Positions 1,299 through 60,699 of a stretch of 64,000 nt of DNA are shown here, piece by piece (the first letter of the stretch is position 1; each line of letters opens with the position of its first letter). A model generated the notes under the pieces. That model made no database searches and was not told the origin of the DNA. It saw only the letters and a program-made list of their open reading frames with translations. Location: NCBI RefSeq assembly GCF_029633865.1, contig NC_079221.1:4440409-4504408 (forward strand). The letters run 5' to 3'. The stretch is from Lampris incognitus (Eukaryota > Chordata > Actinopteri > Lampriformes > Lampridae). A program made the position numbers and the translations under genes.

Positions 1299-3334
1299 AT
1301 ATTATGCCGTGGATACAGAATTTGACACAACACCCCTCTCCCCAGGCCAAATGAGTCTAGTCGGTGCCGATGCCACCCAACTGCCTGCCCGTGCTAACTT
1401 AATCAGTCTTATATTGATTCGTGTCATTTTGATATATCATGTTTTTATATTGTGACGTGGTTAAATAATGGACTTCTTAGACACCCTTTCAGAATTAACA
1501 AGTAAGCTTTTAATGACCGCAAGTCAGAACAGACACGAGTTGGTATGTGTCTTAGCTCCGCCCCTTTTCTTGGCCACCGAAGCAAACCCATCTATTTGCC
1601 TACTCTTTACCCTCATGGTGGGAAGTAGCACGTTATCTAATGTAACTTCTCTCATAACGTCCCCATCACCTTCCACCACATCGCCGCCGTCTGTGACAGA
1701 CATGTCCGTTTTTAACATGTTCCATATCCCACAACATGACCAAAACGGCGACCGCCCCCGTTGCATTGTGGGTAATATGTGAATGAACCTCGGAGCAGAA
1801 ACACTAGTAGAATTCGCCACAATATGTTCTCTATTCTAGCAAAGCTTAATTTTTGCGGTTAGTGCTTATCTATTTATGTATCCTGTCTGTTTTCTTCTCT
1901 CAGCATTCTTTTTAATCTGCGCACTATCAATAAGTATAAAGTGCATTGCACTTCCACGAAATGCGGTATGAAACGAAGACTGAGCGGTTGATTGGCTGTT
2001 ACGGCCAAGCAGGTTTAAACGCCAAAGAGGGCGGAGGCGACGCCGGGCAGAGTAACCGCAGTCCACCCCAAAAGGAGAGCACGAAGAAGACGAACAGAAC
2101 GACGACGACGAAGAAGAAGAAGAAGAAGAAGAAGAGTGCGGTCCCGGAATCGGCGGCGCTCACATCTCGGAACTTGGGGTAATAAGATTCACTTTTAAGG
2201 AGCTTCCGCCGCGTCCTCCCCGGTAAATCCCAGCTGGCCAGATGTTTGCGCGGGTTAAAGGTGAAACCGCAGAACAGTCGCGAAGTTGTGTGAGAAATGA
2301 AGGTAAAGTTGTAAGAGATCCCGCAGCTGCGACGTTCAAGTTGAGGGCTGACGTCAGTCTGCTGATAGGCTGGACCATGTGAGGCTGCAGGTCCAGGTCT
2401 TGGTCCTGGTCCTGGTCTGTTGACGCGTTGGTTGCCCAAAGCTGTGCAGAGCAGCTGGCCATTTCATCAAAATGCACTGAGAAACATTCCTGCTTTATTT
2501 CAGATTTTCACCAAAAAAGCAATAATAACCGCGATGTACCTGCTTTATTTCAGAGAGAAATAGTCTCTGTTCCAAATGTAGTTTCTCTCTGGAATATTCT
2601 AGACCTCAGACCTGAACTGGAAGAGAACCCGGTGCTTACCTTCCACATATCTGATTATGGATAAGGTTAAGGAAGTGACTTTTAAAATAATTCATCTTTC
2701 TTTCATCCCTCCCAATTTATTTCTAACAAGACATAAAAAGCACATTGATGTGGACTGCTCATTTCCTCAACTGGTCCAGAGGATTTAAGCCATTTTTATG
2801 TTGGCCTTGTACTTTGTGCTTTTTGGCAAGATGTCGGTACATTTATTTCCCAATATATTGATCCCGAATTTTCCCTTTCCTATGAAAACGTGTTGTTGTT
2901 TGGCTTCTTTACTTGTAATTCAGGCGAAGCAAATCAATATTTTATCATCAATTCGATTTTTATTACTTGCAAAATCACACTGATAAATCTAAGTCGTCCA
3001 ATCATAAACCATCCTTTTTTTAATTTTCGAAAATGAAATCAAACAATACGTTACACCGATTCTATATTCTAAAAATAAGGAAAGCTATTGAAACCATAGA
3101 TGTATGTACCGCTTATAAGATTTTTGTGAGCTGATTTGTGATTTCTGTTAATGTTCTGACCCCCGGGCACTATCTGTTTTTTGTGTTTACTGCATAAAAA
3201 ATAAAAATAATAATAAAAAATGTGCATACACCATTAAAAAAAAAAGTTGATCATTTCATTATAGATTGTTGTCATTTACCCGTCAAGATGTTTAACAGCA
3301 CTTTGCGTCACGTCATCTGTTTCATAGCCAAGAC
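1299..3334. other. Gene-poor region upstream of the first SDR gene, with a CpG-rich patch
   Basis: No convincing coding exon. Positions about 1990-2460 are GC- and CpG-rich, unlike the AT-rich flanks, and contain a (GAC)n/(GAA)n tract at 2100-2135. This could be an upstream promoter or 5' UTR exon for the SDR gene starting at 3335, but no TATA box or clear splice donor ties it to that gene. The ORFs here are spurious low-complexity translations. A polypyrimidine stretch and CAG precede the ATG exon (around 3290-3300), so a 5' UTR splice acceptor is possible. Confidence 0.3.
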
Positions 3335-14688: not shown

Positions 14689-14839
14689 TGTAACGTGCAT
14701 GGATAAGTAGACACGTTGGTCCTGGACTAACGGGTCGAACCCTTTAGTCGACTGGTTAACATTGTCGCTTGCGGAGCGGGAGACACGGGTTCGCGTCCCG
14801 GTTGTGACGGTTCTCGGACTGCCCCCCGAATTCGCTACA
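14689..14839 (+). mobile_element. Solo miniature LTR (TRIM subfamily B) with tRNA-like module
   Basis: The 151-bp unit starts TGTAACG and ends GCTACA, and matches the LTRs of the element at 36370-36755. It is flanked by ATAT on both sides, although the site is low complexity. Inside is a tRNA-like module: box A-like TAGTCGACTGG (14745-14755) and box B-like GGTTCGCGTCC (14788-14798), 32 bp apart as in a tRNA gene. It sits inside the hAT element. Confidence 0.6.
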
Positions 14840-17721: not shown

Positions 17722-20700
17722 AGAATCCTGTCACACCCGGCGTTAAGCGGCACTTTGTTTTTGGCGGTTACCGTTGCCATTGCTTGGTTCATCAGAGATT
17801 CCTGCAAAGTTGACAACTTCCCCCAGAAGCACGTCTTCATCACGGGCTGCGACAGCGGCTTCGGGAATTCGCTGGCCAGACAGCTGGATCAGAAGGGATT
17901 CCACGTGATCGCCGCATGTCTCACCGAGAAAGGTGCCTCGCATTTGGCATCCGTGTCCTCCCCCAGACTCAAGACTCTTCTGCTCAATGTTACCGACAGC
18001 GCCGGCATCGGGAGAGCGGTGGAGTTTGTCAGCGCGAAGGTCAAAGGTCGAGGTGAGGTGGGCGGACGGCAGGGGGTACGGGCAGATAGGGTGCCAGTCA
18101 GCGTTAAGCACCGGTGGGTGGGAGATGAAGGGAAACTTGACCACCACACCATCCTCCGACTGAGTCACGCAGACCTACATTTGCACTCCCCCCCCCTTCA
18201 TCTAAAGCAGATGGGAGAGACAAATTAACAGCTACCCCCTGCTGATAAGAAACTCACCCATAAACCACTGCTGACAGTCCAACTACATTTCCATCATACA
18301 TTAAAGTGCTTTATCAAAGGAATTCCTGAATTGTTTTTGTGGGTTCAGATATGTCAACCCTGTTTCATTTTTTTTCCCTCTTTGCTCTCATACTATAGCA
18401 GCAGATTAGTTAACAGGGGCAAATGAAGCACTAATTATCTGAGACGGGGGGGGGCATCTAAATAACATGCCATTACTCTGTCATTGCCTTTCAATTTCTC
18501 CCTCAGGTCTGTGGGGGCTGGTGAATAATGCCGGAAGGTCCATACCCATCGGCCCGTCGGAGTGGATGAAGCTGGAGGATTTCGCGACAGTTTTAGACGT
18601 GAATCTGCTGGGACTCATCGACGTGACCCTACAGTTTCTCCCGCTGCTGAAGAAAGCCCGGGGCAGGGTGGTCAATGTGGCCAGTATCTTGGGGAGACTT
18701 TCCCTCACAGGCGGAGGCTACTGTCTGTCCAAATGGGGGGTGGAGGCCTTCTCTGACAGCCTCAGGTATCGGGACCAAAAATAACTCGGCTTTTTAACCC
18801 GTGTGTGTCGTTGATCGCAGCATGTTAGGCCAGAACGTCTCAGTGTATGGCGTGCAGCTACACGGCAGGGCTTATTAAGCCATATGTACTGTATATCCTT
18901 ATTGCCAAGCTAATGGACATTGCAAATATCAGAGATGGTGGTGAGATCACTGGTTCGAATCCCCATATTACCGCCGGCTTGGTCAGGCGTTCCCACAGAC
19001 ACAATTGGCCGGTGTCTACAGGTGGGAAGCCGGATGTGGGTACGAGTCCTGGTCGCTGCACTAACACCTCCTCTGGTTGGACGGGGCGCCTGTTCGAGGG
19101 GGAGGGGGAACTGGGGGGGAATAAAGTGATCCTCCCACGCGCTACGTCCCCCTGATGAAAGTCTTCACTGTCAGGTGAAAAGAAGCGGCTGGCGTCGCCA
19201 CATGTATCGGAGGAGGCATGTGGAGCAGTGACCGGGACGGCTCAGAAGAGTGGGGCAATTGGCCAGATACAATTGGGGAGAAACAGGGGGGATTTTTTTT
19301 CCCCTTTTTTGTTTTGTATGTGCATTCTCTGCATGGCTGGGCAAAATAAGTGTAGCGCCCACCCCCTACTCTGTGTCTCTAGACGCCGTGAAAGGGAATA
19401 AACTAGGAAGGTGGGGCTACGGGTTCGTACACTAATACTATTCTGAATAAGAGTTGATGATACCCAGCAAAATTAAGCTTAATGAACTCAACTTATTATT
19501 CCGAATGAAGTAACTGGACCAGACAACCTCCTTATATAAACAGGTCATGTGTTGAATTTAGGAATGTGAATAAAGTAAAGTTGTGACAGCAGCGATGCAA
19601 ACAGGCGCACAATTATCAATTATGTCAAATACCCCAAACAAGAAAATGCAAATCAAGAATAATATGACTCCAGTCAATAGTTGCACAACCAACACCTTTG
19701 TGCATCCCAAGTATACCAGTGTTTTTGAGAGGGGAACATTATCTAATATATATACACAATTCTAAATGTAAATAGAATAGAGACCAGGATCATGATAGTG
19801 GTATTATATCTATTTAGTGGTCAATGTGAGACTAGCTGTGAGTATACCCCAAATAAAGCTAACTATGTATAGCTTTTAAATAGATTGGGCCTAATTACTT
19901 TGACGGTGAGCAGTACTACAGCAGATACTCTGCTTTAAACGGACCCCCGGGACTGTACTGGCTGTACCGTGACCGAGGAATTCACCTGGCGCTTTAACAC
20001 AAGTGCACGTACCTTTGTGGTACAATAATATACCCCAAGTAAAAACAAACACAAAACACCTGTTGCTCAGTACCACAAGTGTAATAGTGGTGGGCCCACA
20101 CACTTTATAACGCAAATAAAATAACCCCCAAAGCCGCCATAAGCTAATACACGCTGCAGGCCCGTGCGCTACTTGCAATGGGCCGCTCCACTCAACAGAG
20201 CAGCATGAGACTGGACTTACCAATGTCAGCGGGAGGTCGTGTGGGACAAGTAGCGCCGCCTTGTGGCCAGGAGAGCTCTGTACGTGCCCACGTAGCCCTG
20301 AGCGGGAACGATGATGCCAGGGAGACCCTGTTCGAGTCCAGGAGAGCTCCGTACGGCCCACGTAGCACAGAGCAGGGACGATGATGCCAGGGAGACCCTG
20401 TTCGAGTCCAGGAGAGCTCCGTACGGCCCACGTAGCACAGAGCAGGGACGATGATGCCAGGGAGACCCTGTTCGAGTCCAGGAGAGCTCTGTACGGCCCA
20501 AGTAGCACAGAGCAGGGACGATGATGCCAGGGAGACCCTGTTCGAGTCCAGGGGAGCTCCGTACGGCCCATGTAGCACAGAACAGGGACGATGATGCCAG
20601 GGAGACCCTGTTCGAGTCCAGGAGAGCTCTGTACGGCCCACGTAGCACAGAGCAGGGACGATGATGCCAGGGAGACCCTGTTCGAGTCCAGGAGAGCTCT

Positions 20701-23700
20701 GTACGGCCCACGTAGCACAGAGCAGGGACGATGATGCCAGGGAGACCCTGTTCGAGTCCAGGGGAGCTCCGTACGGCCCATGTAGCACAGAACAGGGACG
20801 ATGATGCCAGGGAGACCCTGTTCGAGTCCAGGAGAGCTCTGTACGGCCCACGTAGCACAGAGCAGGGACGATGATGCCAGGGAGACTCTGTTCGAGTCCA
20901 GGGGGAGCTCCGTACGGCCCACATAGCACAGAGCGGGAACGATGATGCCAGGGAGACCCTATTCGAGTCCAGGAGAGCTCCGTACGGCCCACGTAGCACA
21001 GAGCAGGGACGATGATGCCAGGGAGACTGTTCGAGTCCGGGAGAGCTCTGTACGCGCCCACGTAGCCCTGAGCGGGAACGATGATAATAGGGAGACCCTG
21101 TTCGAGTCCAGGGGAGCTCCGTACGGCCCACGTAGCCCAGAGCGGGAACGATGATGCCAGAGAGACCCTGTTCGAGTCCAGGGGAGCTCCGTACGGCCCA
21201 CGTAGCACAGAGCGGGAACGATTATGCCAGGGAGACCCTGTTCGAGTCCAGGGGAGCTCCGTACGGCCCACGTAGCACAGAGCAGGGACGATGATGCCAG
21301 GGAGACCCTGTTCGAGTCCAGGAGAGCTCCGTACGGCCCACGTAGCCCAGAGCGGGGAAGATGATGCCAGGGAGACTGTTCGAGTCCAGGGGAGCTCCGT
21401 ACGGCCCACGTAGCCCAGAGCAGGGACGATGATAACAGCGAGACCCTGTTCGAGTCCAGGGGAGCTCCGTACGGCCCACGTAGCCCAGAGCGGGAACGAT
21501 GATGCCAGGGAGACCCTGTTCGAGTCCAGGGGAGCTCCGTACGGCCCACGTAGCCCAGAGCGGGAACGATGATGCCAGGGAGACCCTGTTCGAGTCCAGG
21601 GGAGCTCCGTACGGCCCACGTAGCCCAGAGCGGGGACGATAATGCCAGGGAGACCCTGTTCGAGTCCAGGGGAGCTCCGTACGGCCCACGTAGCCCAGAG
21701 CGGGGACGATGATGCCAGGGAGACCCTGTTCGAGTCCAGGGGAGCTCCGTACGGCCCACGTAGCACAGAGCGGGGATGGAGACCAAAATCCAGCGATGAA
21801 CCGCCGCATACGAACCTTAATGCGCGGTGCGCGTGACCGGGTTGCTGTACGGCCGTATCCTATGGCTCAGTCCCACGAGCTACCGGCTCACCGACACCAG
21901 GCAGAGCATTTACGCTACAGGCAAGCTAACTTGCTAGCACATCTGACTAGCAAGACACTCATAAAGAACACTGGGGTCGTACAGAAAATAAAACACGTCT
22001 TTCAAACGACTCCATATATGGTCAGTAAAAGACCGTATTTCGAATGACAACTGCCGCCATTACAGCAAAGGTTAGATTAGCCTAACTACCCAAGCTAATC
22101 GGGAGCAATCAGCTAACGTAAACTGATTGAGCTAGCAAGTGAAGCTAACAGTGAGAATTTACGTACACAACCTCAAACTTCTGAATATAATCTGACGCAA
22201 CACACCTTGCAAATTTACACGTCTGATCAACGTATAAGAGTCGACTCTAACGAGTATATAATTAAAGCCCAATACAGGATAATGCTGGGGAGACTGTAGA
22301 CAGCGGAACGCCACTTGACTTGAGACCTTCATTCCCGAACTCTCTCGAACTTCTTCCTCTTCTTCTCTAAAGTGCTCTCTACTCCCGCCCCCCATCCAAT
22401 CACAATAAAGATGTGCCCTTATTGACATTTGACATCAACCAATAAAACACTGATACGCCATATAGGGGAGGTCGTACACGCGCTATGCCTCGTGTGTGCC
22501 CACGTACGTTCCAATCAAACTTGCTTAGTTTTTTTGTCTTTCTTTTTTAGGGCAGACGGGACGCGAACCTTAGACACTGGTGTTACTTTTCCCGTCTCCG
22601 TCTTCTGACCACCTTCGCCTGAAGCTACAGGGGAACCGAATTTATTTGGGATCCAGGGCGGAAGTTCGCCGGCGCTGTCCGTCACTGCCTGGCGCTAGCG
22701 AGCTAGCTAAACTCCGGAGCACAACCCGACACGACTCAATAGTTCACTTCGTCTGAAAATGGCGAGGGCACCGTCTTCTCTCTTCCGTAACACGTTTAAT
22801 CCTCCTTCACAGCTGCACAAAACGTTGACACAGGTCCAATATATCACAACAGTTCTTAGTAGTAATATTTCCTTTCACTTGCGCGGAGCTCCCACTAACG
22901 TTCGCGCCACACAACAACAACTTCCTCATTCAGCCCTCCCTACCAACCAATCAGCGTCCGACCCCAGATCTTGCTCTTAAAGCGGTACACACTTATTTAC
23001 CGACACTAGTGTAAACTACTAATAAGACCCGTTAGCCCCTAGCTAACGGGTCTGACCCTCTAGCCGAGCGGTTAGCGACGTCGCCTTGTGGTGCAGTACA
23101 CCCCATATCGAATCCCGCACCGGGCAAGAAAATAACCGGTTACATTGGTGGCAGCGGCGGGATCCGGAAGTGTGCAGATCCTCAGAGGTCTCTTCGGAGC
23201 GCGGGAATAACAAAGCGCAAGGGCGCGCTTCCGGGAGAGGGTGACAACTGTAAACTACTAATAAGACACGTTAGCCCCTAGCTAGCTAACGGGTCTGACC
23301 CTTTAGCCGAGCGGGTAGTGACGTCGCCTTGTGGTGCAGCACACTCGTATCGAATCCCGCACCGGGCAAGAAAATAACCGGCTAAACTAGCAAATCCCTG
23401 CTGACACAGTAAAACTACATGCATTTAACAGCTGCACTAGACCATAGCATAGTGTGACCGGTGCATCTTCTTCTGTCCAGGCGGGACATGCAACACTTTG
23501 GTGTCAAAGTGAGCATCATCGAGCCCGGGTTCTTCAAGACGGGAGTGACGAGGCTGGATCTTATTGAGGCGGACCTGAGGAGGCGCTGGAACCACCTCCC
23601 TCAAGATGTCAGAGACTCCTATGGAGCGCAATACTTTGACGACTGTAAGTGTGACTTGCCCTCTGAATGAACTCCGGTTCCAAAATGAGCATTGTGCGTT

Positions 23701-34000: not shown

Positions 34001-37000
34001 AGGAAACCGGCACACCCGGAGGAAACCCACACAGACACGGGGAGAACATGCAAACTCCACACACAGGACGACCCGGGACGACCCCCAAGGTTGGCTACCC
34101 GGGGCTCGAACCCAGGACTTTCTTGCTGTGAGGCGACCACGCGAACCACTGTGCCACCATGCTGCCTATATAAAATCCAGTGAGTTAAGTAAAACTATAA
34201 AAGAAACAGTGTTTCTTTTAACAAAGTTACACTACCGTTCAAAAGTTTGGGATCACCCAAACAATTTTGTGTTTTCCATGAAAAGTCACACTTATTCACC
34301 ACCATATGTTGTGAAATGAATAGAAAATAGAGTCAAGACATTGACAAGGTTAGAAATAATGATTTGTATTTGAAATAAGATTTTTTTTACATCAAACTTT
34401 GCTTTCGTCAAAGAATCCTCCATTTGCAGCAATTACAGCATTGCAGACCTTTGGCATTCTAGCTGTTAATTTGTTGAGGTAATCTGGAGAAATTGCACCC
34501 CACGCATCCAGAAGCAGCTCCCACAAGTTGGATTGGTTGGATGGGCACTTCTTTGAGCAGATTGAGTTTCTGGAGCATCACATTTGTGGGGTCAATTAAA
34601 CGCTCAAAATGGCCAGAAAAAGAGAACTTTCATCTGAAACTCGACAGTCTATTCTTGTTCTTAGAAATGAAGGCTATTCCATGCGAGAAATTGCTAAGAA
34701 ATTGAAGATTTCCTACACCGGTGTGTACTACTCCCTTCAGAGGACAGCACAAACAGGCTCTAACCAGAGTAGAAAAAGAAGTGGGAGGCCGCGTTGCACA
34801 ACTGAGCAAGAAGATAAGTACATTAGAGTCTCTAGTTTGAGAAACAGACGCCTCACAGGTCCCCAACTGGCATCTTCATTAAATAGTACCTGTTAGAGCC
34901 TGTTTGTGCTGTCCTCTGAAGGGAGTAGTACACACCGGTGTAGGAAATCTTCAATTTCTTAGCAATTTCTCGCATGGAATAGCCTTCATTTCTAAGAACA
35001 AGAATAGACTGTCGAGTTTCAGATGAAAGTTCTCTTTTTCTGGCCATTTTGAGCGTTTAATTGACCCCACAAATGTGATGCTCCAGAAACTCAATCTGCT
35101 CAAAGAAGTGCCCATCCAACCAATCCAACTTGTGGGAGCTGCTTCTGGAAGCGTGGGGTGCAATTTCTCCAGATTACCTCAACAAATTAACAGCTAGAAT
35201 GCCAAAGGTCTGCAATGCTGTAATTGCTGCAAATGGAGGATTCTTTAACGAAAGCAAAGTTTGATGCAAAAAAAATCTTATTTCAAATACAAATCATTAT
35301 TTCTAACCTTGTCAATGTCTTGACTCTATTTTCTATTCATTTCACAACATATGGTGGTGAATAAGTGTGACTTTTCATGGAAAACACGAAATTGTTTGGG
35401 TGATCCCAAACTTTTGAACGGTAGTGTATATATATAACTTTTCCAACTCTGTGGATAGTTTCCAACTTGGACAAAGCTGAGTTGGAAACGGTCGGATGGT
35501 TAGTTTTGGCCGCTAGCCAAACAGTATAGTCGCCGCTTATTCCATTTGTTTGCCCAACAAGTGGGTGTTATCGATAGCTGGTGCACGCCAGATCAGTGAG
35601 ACGTTTTACAGTTAAAGATTTACTTCGTCGTTCCCGCTGTCCACCCGCCCAGAGAACAGAGGACAGGGACATTGACTTGTATCGGCGGACACGGTAGTGT
35701 TTACCAGCTGCCTGCCTGAACTTGCCTGCGCTGATACTGAACGGACGGTAACGTCTGGTCTCGGTCACCATCACTACAGGTACTTTGCAGTCATTTCTCT
35801 AGCTCGGCAGCGAGCGAAGGGGCCATTCTAGTTTGCGGCCACACCACACACAAGCAGCGATTCAGGCCTGCAACGAGGGTTTCATTTTTATTTAAATGCC
35901 AGCTTAGCACAACCTAGGTTTATGGTGTTTATGCTGTATAGTTACTGTTTAAGGTGGCCCACAAATCTAATTAAAAGGTACCTAAGGTAGTCATTTAATG
36001 TGAAAGATATACAAGGGTTATTAAACTGAATACTTTTTTTTTTTTGTTTATTGAAGTAATTACTGTTCGGAAGGATTTTTGATCAAAACCTCTGAAAATT
36101 TTTGTGTTTATTCATTAGATGCACATTTATTTGGGTTACTTGAATTATTGCTTTTTTACGGGTATATATCTTAGGGGTATATATATTTCCTGTAAAAACT
36201 TTTCCAAACGGAAAAAATACATTTTTTTTTCCTGCATCTGTATTGATATTCCGCTCCTCATTAGTTGAGCACTTATAACACCATTGACAGTTTCGGGGGG
36301 AAAAAAAACGCCATATATATATATATAGATATATACGTATATATAGTATTGTGTGTGTGTGTGTGTGTGTGTAATGACCATGGATGTGTAGACTTGCTAG
36401 CTCGATGGCTAATGGGTCAGACCCTTTAGTTGACCGGTTAGCGCAGTCGCCCGTGGTGCAGGAGACTCAGGTTTGCTTCCTGGCTGCCCCTTCATTTGCC
36501 ACTTTGGTGTCAGAAGTGGGATGGGGAGACCATGAGGCGATCGGAAGCACGTGCACCCAGAGGTGTGAGGGAGCTGGTATGCTGAATCATGGGGACGCGC
36601 TTCATGAAGAAGGAGGGGTAGTGTAATGACCATGGATGTGTAGACTCACTAGCCCATTGGCCAACGGGTCGGAGTCTTTAGTTGACTGGTTAGCACAGTC
36701 GCCCGTGGTACGGGAGACCCAGGTTCACGTCCCGGCTTCCCCTGAATTTGCTACACACACGTTCATATATATACGTGTATATATATACGTGTATATATAT
36801 ATATATATATATATATAATCCAGTGATTCAAGTAAATTCTTTATGAGACAGTACAAGCCTGTGTCATGCCATAAGCAATCATCAGTTAAAACGTTTGGTT
36901 TGTGGTCCTTCAGGGTGATAAGGCTCGGTTCCGAGCAGTGACATCAATGCGGTTGTCTAACTTAAGGTCCGAGGCAATGTTTTCATCTTTCATCATTACT

Positions 37001-59830: not shown

Positions 59831-60058
59831 GGGGGGGGACAGTCCATGGTTGGGCTGGGTGACTAAGTGGCTGACTGAGTGATCGTGTTTGACAGGATTG
59901 GGTCGCTGGATCAGGTGACCAACAACGTCACTCAAGTTACTTGGCTGCGAGGCACGAGGGAGCGCGCACAATTAAAGCACCGGAAATAAAAATCACTCTG
60001 GCAAAACCGTCACTGGCGAATCCACAAGTGCCCTTTGCGGCCGCTACACTTACACCAG

Positions 60059-60316
60059 TGTAAACTACTAATAAGACACGTTAGCCCCTAGCTAGCTAAC
60101 GGGTCTGACCCTTTAGCCGAGCGGTCAGTGACGTCGCCTTGTGGTGCAGTACACCCCGTATCGAATCCCGCACCGGGCACCGTATCGAATCCCGCACCGG
60201 GCAAGAAAATAAGCGGTTACATTGGCGGCAGCGGTGGGATCCGGAAGTGACGTCGCCTTGTGGTGCAGTACACCTCGTATCGAATCCCGCACCAGGCAAG
60301 AAAATAACCGGTTACA
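60059..60316 (+). mobile_element. Rearranged TRIM, subfamily A
   Basis: A 5' LTR (60059-60221) with an internal duplication of its box B region, then a primer-binding-site-like TGGCGGCAGCGGTGGGAT (60223-60240), then directly a partial LTR (60248-60316). Most of the internal segment is missing. Confidence 0.65.
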
Positions 60317-60345
60317 CACGTTTTTGTTTTCCTTGTCTTACTGGC

Positions 60346-60662
60346 GTAACCGGTTATTTTCTTGCCCGAGATTCGTCAGACCCGTTAGCTAGCTAGGGGC
60401 TAACGTGTCTTATTAGTAGTTTACAGTCGTCACCCTCCCGGAAGCGCGCCCTCGCGCTTTGTTATTCCCGCGCTCCGAAGAGACTTCTGCGGATCCGCAC
60501 ACTTCCGGATCCCGCCGCTGCCACCAATGCAACCGGTTACGTTCTTGCCCGGTGCGGGATTCGATACGAGGTGTACTGCACCACAAGGCGACATCACTAA
60601 CCGCTCGGCTAAAGGGTCAGACCCGCTAGCTAGGGGCTAACGTGTCTTATTAGTAGTTTACA
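60346..60662 (-). mobile_element. TRIM, subfamily A, inverted neighbour
   Basis: Inverse orientation to the previous copy and only about 30 bp away. It has a shortened LTR (60346-60425), an internal segment like that at 23164-23248, the primer-binding-site-like ATCCCGCCGCTGCCACCA (60509-60526, plus strand) and a full LTR (60528-60662) with the tRNA-like module. Confidence 0.68.
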
Positions 60663-60699
60663 CGTGTAATTCTCCAAGCGCCCACAAAGGGTGAAATGC

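Follow-up and report, generated by a model that had tools for sequence, protein, structure and literature searches.

Does the 377-bp segment at positions 23010-23386 of the Lampris incognitus DNA analysed here (64,000 nucleotides in all, hereafter the window) represent a non-autonomous LTR retrotransposon, and does the tRNA-like module in its LTRs act as a Pol III promoter? The original prediction placed a miniature LTR element at 23010-23385, coordinates that are correct to within a few bases, and recognised no described family like it. On the latter point it has been overtaken, as TRIMs with tRNA-derived LTRs and the same anatomy were named Helenus in 2024 (Kojima 2024, PMC10886601). Copies resembling the window element are here termed family 1, and those of a second, related group family 2.

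Structure of the element

The element comprises two LTRs in direct orientation with 90.5% identity (blastn, E 4e-49), the 5' LTR (23010-23144; all features of the element are on the + strand) reading TGTAAAC...GTTACA over 135 bp and the 3' LTR (23249-23386) spanning 138 bp. The direct repeats were correctly predicted, with measured lengths of 135 and 138 bp in place of 135-137 bp; a final extra A belongs to the 3' LTR because its colinear alignment with the 5' LTR ends at 23386 (GCTAAA versus GTTACA). Between the LTRs lies a non-coding interior of 104 bp (23145-23248), which is too short for a coding region, as had been claimed. At under 1 kb and without coding capacity, the 377-bp element falls within the definition of a TRIM. 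It is flanked by CTAG at 23006-23009 and again at 23387-23390, according to a 4-bp rule derived from 45 genomic copies.

The references for the primer-binding site (PBS) were the 3' ends of human tRNA-Leu(AAG) and tRNA-Leu(CAA). The PBS of the window element (23146-23163) is complementary to tRNA-Leu(AAG) at 17 of 18 bases, 12 of them in one run, which upholds the predicted site but not its full 18-base match. A purine-rich stretch, GGGAGAGGG (23233-23241), is likewise present and is a candidate polypurine tract, but it stops 7 bases short of the 3' LTR edge that it had been said to precede. This family-1 candidate is short and away from the LTR edge; in family 2 the tract GAAGAAGGAGGGGTAG directly adjoins the 3' LTR.

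Both LTRs were scored for Pol III motifs against box A and box B consensus sequences. In the 5' LTR, box A TAGCCGAGCGG (23061-23071) has no mismatch and a degenerate box B ATATCGAATCC (23105-23115) has 3 mismatches in 11 positions. Box A is thus where it was predicted, whereas box B starts at 23105 rather than 23106 and the gap between the boxes is 33 bp, not 34. The corresponding boxes of the 3' LTR are at 23304-23314 and 23347-23357. A perfect 12-bp stem with a 5-nt loop (23025-23053) immediately precedes the tRNA-like module.

Related copies in the window

Two further family-1 copies stand in opposed orientation at 60055-60666. Copy A (60059-60316, + strand; left flank CCAG) has an internal duplication in its 5' LTR and has lost most of its interior, while copy B (60345-60662, - strand; right flank CGTG) carries an internal deletion in its 3' LTR; the 28-bp spacer separating them (60317-60344) reads as inverted. 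The flanks as they stand are CCAG-A-CACG...CTGG-B-CGTG, and turning the spacer back gives CCAG-A-CCAG...CGTG-B-CGTG, restoring both 4-bp duplications. Judging from these flanks, each copy first made an ordinary 4-bp duplication and the spacer was inverted afterwards, an inversion that may most simply have arisen by recombination between the opposed copies.

A family-2 element occupies 36370-36755 (+ strand), with LTRs at 36370-36503 and 36622-36755 and no clear duplication. Its PBS (36505-36522, + strand) matches tRNA-Leu(CAA) at 18 of 18 bases, and its polypurine tract GAAGAAGGAGGGGTAG lies directly before 36622 on the same strand. A related solo LTR of 151 bp (14689-14839, + strand) contains the box B form GGTTCGCGTCC and is bordered by ATAT on both sides within AT-rich sequence. 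At the left edge of the window are a family-2-like interior with a tRNA-Leu PBS (1-116, - strand), cut by the window start, and a related LTR fragment (1214-1297, - strand). Within this region (1-1297, - strand) the interior begins exactly at the PBS, yet non-LTR sequence precedes it; between interior and LTR fragment is a stretch that appears LINE-like by eye, for which Pfam gave no family.

Elsewhere in the window, long open frames at 19891-21866 (- strand) consist of one repeated unit and are probably a GC-rich minisatellite, not a gene. The window also holds exons encoding a short-chain dehydrogenase and LDL-receptor repeats, as well as a Tc1-type transposase that carries the Sleeping Beauty HTH domain, a content that suggests a fish host.

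Copies in the host genome

We searched the host genome (1,481,484,146 bases in 537 contigs) with three queries. The 5' LTR gave 1940 putative first-look candidates, of which 40 were scored (96-100% identity), the interior gave 1435, with 40 scored, and the family-2 LTR gave 3588, with 40 scored, yielding 46 matches. The exact 29-base junction of LTR and PBS occurs 168 times genome-wide, compared with none for the reversed control. Sixty family-1 loci were analysed, the LTR query and the interior query contributing 30 each; two of the sixty duplicate others. Their architectures were LTR-interior-LTR (41), solo LTR (10), tandem (5), interior-LTR (3) and LTR-interior (1), and a rerun with a shorter word returned 40, 10, 5, 3 and 1, respectively, plus one LTR-interior-LTR-LTR. 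Among the 30 loci from the LTR query alone there were 18 LTR-interior-LTR, 10 solo LTRs, one tandem and one partial copy. The tandems include the form LTR-interior-LTR-interior-LTR. The host genome contains at least two related families, present as paired LTRs, solo LTRs and tandems.

LTR-LTR distances in 30 family-1 elements ranged from 0.023 to 0.097 (median 0.054; window element 0.071), none having identical LTRs, and the only two family-2 elements with two full LTRs gave 0.153 and 0.203. Family 1 is accordingly the younger of the two as sampled.

Two loci show further repetition: an array of five LTR-derived units with a 100-bp period (L046, 1101-1633) and a repeated LTR-interior array (L039, 1032-1914). 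Family-1 copies also cluster 3-13 Mb from contig ends, an interval chosen after viewing the positions, with 86% of 105 merged positions, taken from the matches listed and biased by similarity, falling in this zone against 31% expected; none of 2000 uniform simulations on contigs of known length reached this value. Gypsy-type PBS sites and family 2 had 33% of 55 and 67% of 21 positions in the same zone, respectively. On seven contigs outside the listing that suggested the pattern, 14 of 17 family-1 positions were in the zone (7.7 expected), as were 7 of 14 PBS sites.

Target-site duplications

For 47 of the 60 family-1 loci the positions of both ends were clear, leaving 45 distinct copies once 2 duplicates were removed. 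An exact 4-bp flanking repeat was found in 21 of these 45, compared with 46 matches among 1980 mispaired flanks used as a control, and TA occupies the middle of 11 of the 21 repeats. No exact 4-bp repeat was present in the other 24 of 45, where decay or recombination accounts for its absence. Of the 30 family-2 loci, 15 were testable and 4 of these had a 4-bp repeat. The original prediction had read the flanking repeat of the window element as 5 bp (ACTAG). The actual repeat is CTAG, and a 5-bp duplication is rejected, being found in 0/45 family-1 and 0/15 family-2 copies (6 bp likewise in 0/45 family-1 copies). With its length corrected to 4 bp, the duplication agrees with Gypsy-type integration, which is what an animal Helenus element should show.

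Primer-binding site and candidate helpers

The commonest PBS form, present in 24 of 45 family-1 interiors with the first base aligned, differs from the window copy only at the mismatching base; the window copy's own form was found in 14 of 45, aligned in the same way. The PBS pattern TGGTGGCAGCGGTGGGATW matches 86 genome sites (reversed control, 0). Two of these 86 PBS-like sites were examined (L091 and L092). Each is a Gypsy-type copy whose open frame is interrupted, leaving several open stretches, and each has RVT_1 and RNase H domains. A search with nhmmer up to E 10 detected no similarity of either copy to the Helenus LTR, and the 18-nt PBS match in the interior is all that they share with family 1. 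Gypsy copies with a matching tRNA-Leu PBS are therefore no more than candidate helpers.

The tRNA-Leu(CAA) PBS has 1082 genome sites. The one examined (L093) was rejected as a family-2 helper, as it is itself a family-2 TRIM. In this locus a related LTR in opposed orientation, with ATAT on both sides, is nested in the family-2 interior (approximately 3009-3110, + strand of the locus).

Origin of the tRNA-like module

Of 400 dinucleotide shuffles of the 5' LTR, one gave a box pair as good as the original, and the pair in the 3' LTR, with 2 mismatches, was equalled in 0/400. Across the window, however, a pair with no more than 3 mismatches is present in 19 of 948 tiles of 135 bp (both strands), some of them the element's own LTRs, and taken by itself the motif pair is thus not strong evidence. 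Box A has the form TAGCCGAGCGG in 83 of 98 distinct family-1 LTR copies and is mostly TAGTTGACTGG in family 2, departing from TRGCY. Among the 98 distinct LTR copies of family 1, 71 have a box B that reads GTATCGAATCC and none has the GGTTC core; in family 2 the core is present in 43 of 51 distinct LTRs and TCC is kept in 47 of 51. Variation in family-2 box B is concentrated at the sixth to eighth positions, which are likewise variable in the box B of tRNAs.

Conservation figures lean towards the forms seen in the window because the copies were picked for likeness to its sequence; with that bias, box A of family 2 ranks among the top 3 of 124 windows of equal length and its box B is unremarkable (104/124 do as well), the family-1 boxes are not singled out (28/125 windows as conserved for box A and 57/125 for box B), and identity between the families averages 0.79 in box A, 0.75 in the hairpin, 0.70 in the segment from box A to box B, 0.57 in box B and 0.54 at the 3' end.

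Similarity to tRNAs was scored against 15 human tRNAs with 500 shuffles. The solo LTR at 14689 scored 47 against tRNA-Gly (best shuffle 34) and the family-2 3' LTR scored 38 against tRNA-Asp (best shuffle 32); the window element's own score of 31 is modest, being matched by 2 of 500 shuffles. The LTRs of families 1 and 2 are homologous, and by these scores the module is tRNA-derived, most visibly in the relatives. This bears out the idea of a tRNA-based element that corresponds in animals to the 5S-based Cassandra.

A working tRNA gene is ruled out by ARAGORN, Rfam/cmscan and folding. ARAGORN found no tRNA genes in the whole window and none in eight LTR sequences at its default threshold, reporting one of the eight at 80% and two at 70% when relaxed. 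Rfam had nothing matching up to E 10 in 22950-23450, and cmscan at gathering thresholds found nothing in the window or in 20 loci. The family-2 segment 36300-36800 likewise gave no tRNA match, and the family-2 TRIM L093 gave only a weak one, confined to the T-arm of the model (12.3 bits, the gathering score being 29). The folding energy of the module is indistinguishable from that of shuffles (z -0.35, 0.55 and -0.17). In the stem-loop before the module, 87.5% of pairing cells are kept in eight related LTRs, with covariation within the shuffle range (158/500 for the covariation score, and likewise for pairs in which both bases have changed). At this site the folding of two family-2 LTRs is not better than that of shuffles (z -0.80 and -0.31).

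Nature of the element

We put the probability of a Helenus-type TRIM, meaning an LTR retrotransposon that is non-autonomous and is copied in trans, at about 0.9, on the strength of paired TG...CA LTRs, a tRNA-Leu PBS, 4-bp duplications, solo LTRs, tandems, many copies and a tRNA-derived segment with box A and box B in the LTRs. Two other origins were weighed. A dimeric tRNA-derived SINE resembling an LTR element would explain the tRNA-like modules arranged as direct repeats and a length of under 400 bp, but not the exact 4-bp duplications, the TG...CA ends, a PBS adjoining the first repeat, the solo repeats at 10 of 30 loci or the LTR-interior-LTR-interior-LTR tandems. The check proposed with the original prediction, a survey of paired LTRs, duplications and tails, found 18 of 30 loci paired, 21 of 45 copies with an exact 4-bp repeat and no poly(A) tail at the right edges listed. 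The preference for a TRIM is upheld by the paired, solo and duplication counts, and the SINE is rejected as scarcely credible in view of the fixed 4-bp duplications, LTR-type ends and lack of a LINE-type 3' tail at the edges listed. A deletion derivative of an autonomous Gypsy element whose own LTR bears a tRNA-like module would share its tRNA-Leu PBS with Gypsy copies in the genome, as the window element does. The two Gypsy copies examined among the 86 PBS-like sites, however, have no similarity to the Helenus LTR and match only over the 18-nt PBS, and we regard this origin as improbable. No match was found in prokaryote or viral collections, nor by blastn in phages or plasmids, as expected for a eukaryotic element.

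For a Helenus-type TRIM, RNA would start in the 5' LTR near box A; Pol III would make it, or Pol II should the module have become vestigial. A tRNA-Leu would prime reverse transcription by the enzymes of a Gypsy element, strong-stop DNA would transfer from the 5' to the 3' LTR, and a Gypsy integrase would insert the product and generate the 4-bp duplications. A Pol III transcript running beyond the 3' LTR could in principle still permit strand transfer.

Pol III or Pol II transcription

By descent, Pol III transcription of family 1 is plausible, and the odds of the tRNA module serving this family as an active Pol III promoter appear close to even. As far as sequence can tell, the case for Pol III is weaker here than the original prediction implied, because family 1 retains box A but has no GGTTC core in any of its 98 distinct LTR copies. 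TTTT is found in 2 of 106 family-1 and 2 of 51 family-2 LTR copies.

The competing account is that Pol II transcribes the TRIM and that in family 1 the tRNA-derived segment is a relic which no longer acts as a promoter; we give it somewhat less than even odds. It fits the loss of GGTTC from all 98 family-1 LTRs, even though this family is the less diverged, and a conservation profile that does not single out the boxes; the absence of TTTT from the sense strand of the five window copies is within what chance allows (0.32-0.86 as the shuffle probabilities of zero) and is not used as evidence. Against it stand the lack of AATAAA, ATTAAA and TATAAA/TATATA in the 377-bp element, the intact box A in 83 of 98 family-1 copies and the canonical box B retained in relatives. 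More tentatively, and with some doubt, we suggest that family 1 amplified after the loss of GGTTC, using either Pol III through box A with an altered box B or Pol II, the stem-loop before the module and the clustering some megabases away from chromosome ends being additional features. If true, family 1 would amount to an experiment of nature on the need for the tRNA module.

Comparison with known systems

According to Kojima (PMC10886601), Helenus occurs in fungi, in animals, where its duplications are of 4 bp, and in one plant; vertebrate members use tRNA-His, -Leu or -Lys as primers, and Gypsy is the probable helper. Its box A (TRGCY...YGG) is conserved, as is the GGTTC of box B in most members, a trend and not a stated requirement, and Pol III transcription is described as unproven. 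The window element agrees in its small, gene-less size, tRNA-derived sequence in both LTRs that is not a working tRNA, box A, 4-bp duplications, a PBS matching a tRNA 3' end (tRNA-Leu among those used by Helenus) and Gypsy as candidate helper, as well as in its tandem arrays and many copies, zebrafish LTR-11_DR numbering about 5575 LTRs (PMC10886601). The difference lies in the GGTTC of box B, conserved there and lost in family 1 here. Compared by description only, the families are probably either further Helenus members or an unrecognised copy of a named family, and the element is not new in principle since Helenus was described in 2024. A literature search covering few subscription journals had, among the matches listed, no second description of vertebrate TRIMs with tRNA-derived LTRs.

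Other small elements are less similar. Cassandra of plants is also a TRIM with a small-RNA-gene promoter in its LTRs, but the module is 5S rRNA and Pol III transcripts are reported, the window element being known from sequence only; Ajax shares a Pol III-type LTR module and a tRNA-Leu PBS, but has a 5S-derived module and 5-bp duplications and is found in nemerteans (both as described in PMC10886601). PbTRIM (PMC3532108) and a bivalve TRIM (PMC6934838) are likewise small non-coding animal LTR elements, but the openings of their abstracts mention no tRNA-like LTR module. The present families extend a recently recognised group that joins SINE-like promoters to LTR retrotransposition, and they offer two related families that can be compared in one genome, only one of which has a canonical box B, a contrast that makes Pol III use by such elements directly testable.
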